NCBI GenBank assembly: GCA_919902505.1
Contig: CAKKRE010000012.1
Coordinates: 1 to 64,000 of the forward strand
Source of the DNA: Nitrospiraceae bacterium
Lineage (GTDB): Bacteria; Nitrospirota; Nitrospiria; Nitrospirales; Nitrospiraceae
Length of the DNA stretch: 64,000 bases
Direction: 5' to 3'
Shown here: positions 38,797-41,009 of the stretch, piece by piece
How the letters are laid out: every line of letters starts with the position of its first letter
How positions within the stretch are numbered: the first letter of the stretch is position 1
Program-made: the position numbers and the translations under genes
The notes under the pieces: model-generated
Database searches by the model: none
Told to the model about the DNA's origin: nothing
Seen by the model: only the letters and a program-made list of their open reading frames with translations

Positions 38797-39294
38797 ATGA
38801 CAAGTCGCGGTCAACTCATCAAGGCCAGACTCGCTATTCTCACGATGGCGGCGGAGTTGAAGAATGTCGTCAAGGCCTGTCGGGTGGCCGGGGTCAGCCG
38901 CTCACAGTTCTATGCGATGAAGAAGGCCTACGAGACGCACGGGACGGAAGGTTTGGCGCCGCGGGTGCGACGAAAACCCCAGATGCCGAATCGCACCCCT
39001 GCAACATTAGAGGGGCTCATTTTAAAGAAAACACAAGATAATCCCACCGTGAGTTACGTGCGGCTTGCCGGACAACTGCAGGTGGATGGGACTCCCGCCA
39101 CCCCGGCGATGGTCCGGTATGTCTGGCAACGAAAAGGTCTGTCCACCCGCCAGGCCCGAATACAGTGGGTCAAAACAATGACCCGGCAGCGTGGACCGTT
39201 GAGGTCGGCTGTCGGGAGCCAGCCGGGTCAGGCCGATCATGCGTGTAACCGTCTCGCGCGGACTCCGCATTCGATTCCGGTCTCAGTCGAGTAA
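38797..39294 (+). CDS. Truncated IS481-type transposase (N-terminal HTH part)
   Basis: The 165-aa product starts MTSRGQLIKARLAILTMAAEL and carries the HTH and linker typical of IS481-family transposases (KNVVKACRVAGVSRSQFYAMKKAYETHG; YVRLAGQLQVDG; MVRYVWQRKGLSTR). After about residue 130 the similarity stops; the rest (GSQPGQADHACNRLARTPHS) is unrelated. The DDE integrase core is absent, so it cannot transpose. An intact reading frame and an AAGGAA site remain. It sits just upstream of the exosortase region. Confidence 0.7.
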   Translation: MTSRGQLIKARLAILTMAAELKNVVKACRVAGVSRSQFYAMKKAYETHGTEGLAPRVRRKPQMPNRTPATLEGLILKKTQDNPTVSYVRLAGQLQVDGTPATPAMVRYVWQRKGLSTRQARIQWVKTMTRQRGPLRSAVGSQPGQADHACNRLARTPHSIPVSVE

Positions 39295-39373
39295 TCCTGG
39301 TGGTCCGGCGGTACAGGGACCGCGGCAGTGGGTGTCCGGAGAACATTAACTAAGTAGTTGGCCTATATTTTTC

Positions 39374-39402
39374 TTGACGAAAGTGAGTCAGCGCGAGACA
39401 AT
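39374..39402 (+). promoter_or_regulatory. Possible sigma-70-type promoter for the small PEP-CTERM-like gene
   Basis: TTGACG at 39374-39379 and GACAAT at 39397-39402 are separated by 17 bp, close to the sigma-70 pattern, with AT-rich sequence just upstream. It would leave a leader of roughly 140 nt. This is a single by-eye match. Confidence 0.3.
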
Positions 39403-39547
39403 GCGCCGCAAGAAATCGATGGAATCATTCCAGGCGTGTTACGAATAGTCGGTGCGGAACGGATCTCGGAGGCGTGAAGTAGTTTGCGTAGGCATGTTGC
39501 TGTTCACGGGTCTTGGCGGTGCGTATCTTTAACGAAAGGGGGCCTCA

Positions 39548-39730
39548 ATGATGGCGTTACACATGGAGCACTGGTACAACTGGCACCAGTGGTACCACTG
39601 GATCATTGGCATTATTAACGGCGGAACCCCTGGCAATGGTGGCTCCGTTCCCGGGCCTGAAACCTTGGTGGCCTTTGGTCTCGGTTTCGCGGCTTTTGTG
39701 GTCTGGCGGGCGAAACGAGTAGAAGCGTAG
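39548..39730 (+). CDS. 60-aa protein with PEP-CTERM-like tail and His/Trp/Tyr-rich head
   Basis: This tiny gene follows AAGGGGG at a good distance. Residues 8-18 read HWYNWHQWYHW, an unusual His/Trp/Tyr cluster. A Gly/Pro linker follows, then a sorting-signal-like tail: VPGPETL (about 34-40), a hydrophobic helix (VAFGLGFAAFVVW) and a basic end (RAKRVEA). This matches the layout of PEP-CTERM signals (VPEPxTL, helix, Arg-rich tail), with a PGPE variant of the PEP triplet. The exosortase begins 290 bp downstream on the same strand. There is no signal peptide, unlike normal substrates. It may be a miniature sorted protein or a peptide partner of the exosortase. Coding is supported by the Shine-Dalgarno, the domain-like tail and a terminator after it. 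Confidence 0.75.
   Translation: MMALHMEHWYNWHQWYHWIIGIINGGTPGNGGSVPGPETLVAFGLGFAAFVVWRAKRVEA
39586..39601. repeat. 16-bp perfect palindrome inside the small PEP-CTERM-like gene
   Basis: CCAGTGGTACCACTGG reads the same on both strands and lies in the codons for HQWYHW. Related words (CACTGG, ACTGGC) occur just before it, so the head of the gene is made of short near-repeats. Confidence 0.7.
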
Positions 39731-39757
39731 CCTTCTTTTTGTTTCTTTTAATGGAAG

Positions 39758-39791
39758 GCACCACTCGCGCGGACAAGCCGGCGAGTGGTGC
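39758..39791 (+). terminator. Terminator-like hairpin after the small PEP-CTERM-like gene
   Basis: GCACCACTCGC at 39758-39768 pairs perfectly with GCGAGTGGTGC at 39781-39791; the loop can add CGG/CCG pairs. It is preceded by a T-rich stretch at 39734-39749 and followed by TTCTTCCC rather than a full U-run. It would insulate the small gene from the exosortase. Confidence 0.6.
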
Positions 39792-40019
39792 TTCTTCCCG
39801 ATGCGGTTCACGCTTCCTCAACTCAGACTTCAACGTTTCTGGGTTTTCCTCTCTGGTGAGCGTCCTTCACAGGTCTCCTTGTTAAACGCCATGACTCAGG
39901 TGAGAGCCTGGCGCCTGTTCCGAAGATGACGAGGGCGTGGCCCACCGGGTCATCGAGTCTTGCTCGTTGGCCGAACCACCGCATATGCCTCAGTGCGTCA
40001 TCATCATGCCGGTGAGCCC

Positions 40020-41009
40020 ATGAAAGACGTGACTCTGATCCCCCTGCGGCAGGTTCCGATGGGGCGTCCGACGTTCCCCGAGCGGCAGGCGGCAGGATTG
40101 ATGCTCCTTTCGGCGACACTGTGCGTCGTCGCGATGTTTTGGCCGACCATTCTATCGATGGTGGATGTGTGGCTGAGTTCCCGAACCTTTGCGCATGGAT
40201 TTCTGGTCTTGCCGGTGGTGGGGTATCTCGTCTGGTCGTCTCGTCGGCGGCTCGTCGGGTTGACCCCTCACCCGAGCGTCTGGGGGCTCGTGGCCCTGCT
40301 TCTCTCAGGGAGCGGATGGATTGCGGGGGCTCTGAGTGGATTAGTATGGCTGCAACAGGCTGCGGTCGTCGCGGTGCTGCCGGGTCTGGTGTGGACGATT
40401 TATGGAACGGAGATCGTCCGAACGCTCTCATGGCCTCTGGGGTTTCTCATCTTTCTCCTCCCCGTCGGGACATCGCTTGAACCCTGGCTTCAGGACGTGA
40501 CGGCCTGGCTCATTCTCCGGGGGCTTGATCTCTCTGGCATTGCCTATATGTATCGGGATTATCACATCATCGTCGGCCCGGCGAACTGGGAGGTCGCGCC
40601 TGACTGCGCCGGGTTGCGTTACCTGCTTCCCGGTCTGTCGTTGGGGTATGCGTTCGCCGCGCTGATCTATCGGCAACCTGCCAGACGGATCGTGTTTCTG
40701 GTTTTCTGCGCCGTGGCGTTGATGGTGGCCAATGGCATTCGTGCGTACGGAGTGATCGTGGGCAATCACCTCGGCATCGCTGCCGGCGCCGACCATCGGA
40801 TCTTCAGCTACACGATCTATGGCCTCACCATGCCCTGTCTGTTCTGGCTGGGTCTCAAATGGAAACAACGGGTCGCGCCCGATGCCAACCTGCACCCCGG
40901 CGCGATCCATCGCTTGGATACCCGCAAGGCAGTCGTGATGTCTTTCTGTGGCGTCGGCCTGTTGCTGCTGGCCCGCTTCGCCCTATGGTTTTTCCCCGCG
41001 TCGTCCTGA
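40020..41009 (+). CDS. Exosortase (PEP-CTERM sorting transpeptidase)
   Basis: The 329-aa multi-spanning protein has the exosortase catalytic residues: Cys196 in VAPDCAGLRYLLPG, Arg241 in VANGIRAYGV, and His259 in GADHRIFSYTIYG. The early FAHGFLVLPV motif (58-67) is also present. About eight membrane helices are visible plus one near the C-terminus. There is no fused EpsI domain. Exosortases process proteins with PEP-CTERM tails, usually next to EPS genes as here. The ATG at 40020 is chosen because an upstream in-frame start adds a non-hydrophobic tail. Confidence 0.9.
   Translation: MKDVTLIPLRQVPMGRPTFPERQAAGLMLLSATLCVVAMFWPTILSMVDVWLSSRTFAHGFLVLPVVGYLVWSSRRRLVGLTPHPSVWGLVALLLSGSGWIAGALSGLVWLQQAAVVAVLPGLVWTIYGTEIVRTLSWPLGFLIFLLPVGTSLEPWLQDVTAWLILRGLDLSGIAYMYRDYHIIVGPANWEVAPDCAGLRYLLPGLSLGYAFAALIYRQPARRIVFLVFCAVALMVANGIRAYGVIVGNHLGIAAGADHRIFSYTIYGLTMPCLFWLGLKWKQRVAPDANLHPGAIHRLDTRKAVVMSFCGVGLLLLARFALWFFPASS

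Follow-up and report, generated by a model that had tools for sequence, protein, structure and literature searches.

Neither the chemistry nor the acceptor of exosortases is well defined, in part since the substrates within one genome are often numerous and diverse, and, to our knowledge, exosortase cleavage itself is thinly documented. In a survey of PEP-CTERM proteins, the substrates of these enzymes, 97% were found to have a signal peptide (PMC1569441), and a later account gives it as 'always' present (PMC3237569); while near-universal in these reports, the N-terminal signal peptide nevertheless lies outside the definition of the PEP-CTERM domain (PMC1569441). Systems with one target, which is often encoded beside the enzyme, have been termed 'dedicated'; such pairing has been shown for rhombosortase and GlyGly-CTERM and is put forward as a concept for sortase and exosortase (PMC3237569). 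One PEP-CTERM protein, PepA of Aquincola tertiaricarbonis, ties exopolysaccharide to cells during floc formation (PMC9850573). Short translocated protein tails, for their part, are taken by Oxa1/YidC and not by the SecY channel (PMC7616256).

The window analysed here (the whole stretch of DNA, 64,000 nucleotides) belongs to a Nitrospira genome of 4.24 Mb in 84 contigs (G000), and all genome-wide statements about G000 rest on searches against its contigs. The ORF at 39548-39730 is a real, conserved gene, and its product represents a new variant of PEP-CTERM substrate, minimal and signal-peptide-less, which is most likely the dedicated target of the neighbouring exosortase XrtA. The features of the locus are as follows.

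38797-39294, plus strand: IS481-transposase-derived DNA-binding protein without the catalytic core, a candidate regulator, co-inherited with the mini-gene.
39348-39359, no strand assigned: inverted repeat AACTA-AG-TAGTT, a candidate operator, conserved in carriers of the mini-gene.
39374-39402, plus strand: sigma70-type promoter TTGACG-17-GACAAT, conserved in 7 loci.
39534-39542, plus strand: ribosome-binding site GAAAGGGGG (in relatives GAAGGGAGG and similar), conserved in the alignment.
39548-39730, plus strand: mini PEP-CTERM gene, 60 aa without signal peptide, ATG to stop.
39569-39604, plus strand: 18-bp tandem duplication, the source of most of the His/Trp/Tyr stretch, 14/18 identical, in this genome only.
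39644-39727, plus strand: sorting tail SVPGPETL-(TM helix)-RAKRVEA, conserved by pN/pS and with an AF2-predicted helix.
39753-39798, plus strand: terminator-like hairpin with a weak U-tract closing the transcript, present in 7/7 loci.
40020-41009, plus strand: XrtA-type exosortase, above the TIGR03109 cut-off, with Cys196, Arg241 and His259 intact.

The translation of the mini-gene, MMALHMEHWYNWHQWYHWIIGIINGGTPGNGGSVPGPETLVAFGLGFAAFVVWRAKRVEA, consists of the 11-residue stretch HWYNWHQWYHW (residues 8-18), a Gly/Pro linker, the PEP-type motif SVPGPETL, a hydrophobic helix and RAKR, all of which the original prediction had described correctly. AF2 places a helix at residues 37-59, with a mean pLDDT of 91 for residues 41-50. 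The protein thus carries the C-terminal PEP-like motif, TM helix and basic cluster that define PEP-CTERM proteins, with an exosortase in the same genome, and scores at the curated border: it falls just under the per-protein cut-off of PF07589 (20.2 bits against 20.7, E=0.0006), rises above it in the genome search where frame context is included (21 against 20.7), and lies below that of TIGR02595 (13.1 against 16). The adjoining exosortase scores 228 bits against TIGR03109 (XrtA; cut-off 208) and retains Cys196, Arg241 and His259, as a ten-exosortase alignment shows; a search by sequence found no matching solved structure. Its ATG at 40020, conserved in 7/7 aligned loci, lies 289 bp past the end of the mini-gene, in good agreement with the 290 bp of the original prediction. 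The surrounding genes form an exopolysaccharide (EPS) cluster with glycosyltransferases, a polysaccharide deacetylase, a FemAB/GNAT-type protein, PseC-like aminotransferases, an EPS sugar transferase and an XrtA-type chain-length/tyrosine-kinase protein.

A further five genomes of the genus (6/29 with this one) contain orthologues of 53-58 aa, and the sister-genus genome G116 has two copies, so that carriers amount to 7/236 genomes of the order. Within the same EPS locus and gene order, the orthologues sit some 215-330 bp 5' of the exosortase match, and the exosortases beside them form one clade with 67-74% identity. As anticipated, small-ORF homologues near exosortases were recovered in relatives, at each XrtA locus of this clade with a readable upstream side; the only other genome with a near exosortase is G014 (64% identity), where that gene starts its contig, which makes its upstream side unreadable. 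In the Nitrospira MAG ACE_NIT7 (L033, L034), the HTH/mini/XrtA locus occurs twice in copies 93% identical, either paralogues or an assembly strain mixture. Across eight copies, the tail from SVP on has a pN of 0.09 and a pS of 0.49 (pN/pS 0.18), and the head a pN of 0.32 and a pS of 0.68 (pN/pS 0.48); the head is poorly conserved among orthologues, with that of NOB2 unrelated, and the PEP-type motif is largely retained in the forms VPGPE, VPVPE, VPVPG and VSAPE. Rather than random substitution across the frame, we therefore see a strongly constrained tail, and because the conserved orthologues are under purifying selection, the gene is beyond chance.

The signals for its expression are conserved as well. 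The Shine-Dalgarno/start block is conserved while the 5' region ahead of it is not; conservation is 0.98 for the inverted repeat, 1.00 for the -35 and 0.95 for the -10 element, and drops to 0.52 in the untranslated region that follows. The hairpin 3' of the mini-gene stop, which the original prediction had also noticed, folds at -33 kcal/mol (z=-6).

As predicted, the 60-aa protein has no apparent signal peptide: K/R is missing from the first 10 residues, an AxA site is lacking, and five codons 5' of the start there is an in-frame stop. Judged by sequence features, none is apparent in any of the eight orthologous copies either, the first ten residues being free of Lys/Arg throughout. We considered whether a wrong start masks a signal peptide and rejected this, given the upstream in-frame stop, the ribosome-binding site conserved at the ATG and the non-conserved 5' region; in-frame stops directly 5' of the start exclude a longer N-terminus wherever this was checked. 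Across the orthologues, summed Hessa-scale energies range from 4.7 to 9.0 in the head and from -0.2 to -1.7 in the tail helix, and by this measure the head is insufficiently hydrophobic for a membrane segment. The N-tail of all orthologues carries 0-1 positive charges, against three behind the helix, a pattern from which N-out/C-in would be the expected topology. Since the literature gives signal peptides first for nearly all PEP-CTERM proteins and then for all, the family is an exception that breaks the stated rule, which suggests that the tail alone may suffice for targeting. Longer proteins encoded at the same position in three more distant Nitrospira (G019, G021 and G022) have signal-peptide-like N-termini. 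G021 (L080 3061-3444 and 3851-4117) encodes two small signal-peptide PEP-CTERM proteins before XrtA, one with a head rich in Phe/Trp/Asn/Gly.

Searches of G000 with PF07589 and with a profile of the mini-protein family itself returned the mini-gene ORF as the only credible PEP-CTERM match, and no further credible PEP-CTERM protein. G000 thus has one recognisable target beside the enzyme, as in a dedicated pair. Several other carriers have one or more additional PEP-CTERM proteins; the strict one-to-one state holds for G000 and for recognisable tails, and substrates with an unrecognised tail could exist. A second exosortase locus (L081, contig C37, 2473-7259) encodes a long, EpsI-fused type and has no large PEP-CTERM gene, whereas in relatives (L082, L083) such a gene separates the response regulator from the TPR gene; judged from its sequence, the C37 exosortase is without a recognisable substrate. 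A PEP-CTERM or VPLPA-type gene immediately precedes many other exosortases of the genus, and encoding the enzyme next to its cognate target is thus general there. In G009, a PEP-CTERM protein of 86 aa (L076 1691-1951, minus strand), whose start resembles a signal peptide and which contains two cysteines, is encoded near a different exosortase.

Among the interpretations offered by the original prediction, the minimal substrate is the best supported: the product is probably the dedicated, single substrate of XrtA, composed of a sorting tail and a head of ~35 residues. This is backed by the conserved gene order, the constrained tail with its AF2 helix, the charge pattern and hydrophobicity of the orthologues, the intact exosortase triad, the conserved promoter and hairpin, the single credible PEP-CTERM hit in G000, the missing large PEP-CTERM gene at the C37 locus, and the same-position signal-peptide proteins of the three distant genomes; against it count the PF07589 and TIGR02595 scores below cut-off, the missing signal peptide and the poorly conserved head. 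The only likely membrane helix spans residues 39-53, and because the N-tail before it lacks Lys/Arg and R-A-K-R follows it, the protein would insert N-out/C-in without a signal peptide, perhaps by YidC, as short-N-tail clients do. The PEP motif would then lie at the periplasmic face, just as in a normal PEP-CTERM protein once its signal peptide has been removed. XrtA would cut at this motif, leaving the helix-RAKR stub behind, and the head would pass to an acceptor in the exopolysaccharide or outer envelope, or be released. With a promoter and a hairpin ahead of xrtA, many substrate copies could be made per enzyme. By analogy with PepA of Aquincola (PMC9850573), and from the nature of the locus, we infer that the mini-protein may take part in binding exopolysaccharide to the cell.

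The peptide could instead be a standing partner of XrtA, an activator or assembly subunit whose tail docks on the enzyme and which is not, or not mainly, a substrate. The better conservation of tail than head, the lack of a recognisable cargo domain and the strict pairing of the mini-gene with XrtA would all suit such a role; we consider it unlikely, as it would leave XrtA without any recognisable substrate in G000, the PEP-type motif is largely retained, and the same-position proteins of sister lineages resemble ordinary signal-peptide substrates. Activator or released-peptide roles of the mini-protein, both named by the original prediction, are possible. A third proposal, that of a pseudo-substrate or decoy inhibiting the exosortase, is compatible with a small, signal-less, adjacent product and yet very unlikely: the mini-gene is found in all readable loci of the XrtA clade, and the genome holds no other recognisable PEP-CTERM protein for it to regulate. 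As the sole recognisable PEP-CTERM protein leaves a decoy nothing to compete with, the one-enzyme/one-substrate pair fits best.

A further reading takes the His/Trp/Tyr stretch as the hallmark of a surface peptide that is metal-binding or rich in aromatics. G000 does encode this stretch, but six residues of HWYNWHQWYHW are an insertion resembling an 18-bp tandem duplication, a level of identity between halves that 1 in 2000 shuffles of the ORF matches, and this insertion is missing from the other orthologues, where the corresponding region reads HMGNWYN-WIIGI or similar. We looked for a conserved pattern of His ligands across the orthologues and found none: His5 is the only His common to most copies; a single His is usual among the orthologues, and in NOB2 the residue is absent. 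The aromatic/His pattern is likewise absent from the other orthologues. Because the extra histidines come mainly from the local duplication and His is not conserved, we reject metal binding; a function defined by the stretch is highly improbable, although Trp-rich heads recur in the longer same-position proteins of G019, G021 and G022 and weakly hint at aromatic heads, and possibly aromatic cargo, as a common theme. Finally, a PEP-CTERM gene degenerating after loss of its signal peptide, for which the shared position with the signal-peptide genes of those genomes could speak, is scarcely credible in view of purifying selection and of a start, ribosome-binding site, promoter and hairpin conserved across divergent copies, and selection on the tail likewise refutes a pseudogene.

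The mini-gene also has a neighbour on its upstream side. The 165-aa ORF at 38797-39294 matches only positions 2-115 of the 284-position IS481 profile, its DNA-binding part, and fails as an IS481 transposase for want of the rve/DDE catalytic core; it is a derivative. A model of moderate confidence shows two helical, helix-turn-helix-like halves, and no solved structure matching this HTH protein was found by sequence. The gene is single-copy in the genome and under selection (pN 0.13, pS 0.64), and all carriers have it next to the mini-gene. It is absent from the other genus genomes (0/23), where any counterparts are distant (33-45%) IS transposases, mostly full-length. Between the two genes, at 39348-39402 of the window, the inverted repeat AACTAAGTAGTT is joined to the conserved sigma70-type promoter. 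It is the single site in the genome at <=1 mismatch, so that a search for a regulon at this threshold gave no second site, and it was not found in the loci read in G019, G021 and G022. A comparison with five IS481 copies in G001 and one in G006, made to see whether the repeat marks the end of a living element, gave no convincing match; it could still derive from a lost parent element. It is a reasonable hypothesis that the apparently domesticated transposase domain regulates the mini-gene promoter. Tentatively, the locus might even be a self-contained module of one Nitrospira lineage in which this protein acts via the unique inverted repeat on one promoter, and through it on a signal-less substrate whose ~35-residue head is released or EPS-attached; it would then be an exosortase system with a short peptide as its natural product.

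The recognisable substrates of G000 come down to a single 60-residue peptide, whose gene adjoins that of the enzyme and whose size puts direct mass spectrometry or chemical synthesis within reach. With the PEP-CTERM proteins (PF07589/TIGR02595) of exosortase A (TIGR03109) it shares the C-terminal motif, the short TM helix and the basic cluster, as well as transcription as a single-gene unit that follows a long intergenic region and the location in an EPS locus (PMC1569441); it differs from them in its total length of 53-60 aa, the lack of a signal peptide and its being the sole recognisable one in the genome. As in dedicated sorting pairs, a single target gene adjoins the sorting enzyme; unlike in those pairs, the target lacks a signal peptide and is nearly devoid of cargo. 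PepA shares a stem-loop between the PEP-CTERM gene and a downstream gene of the system (prsT), but is made with a signal peptide and from an RpoN promoter (PMC9850573), where the mini-gene has a sigma70-type promoter and no signal peptide. Finally, a short low-charge N-tail, a single helix, a positive C-tail and the absence of a signal peptide are shared with Sec-independent YidC clients such as the Pf3 coat protein (PMC7616256), a likeness of predicted topology only for which we claim no homology.
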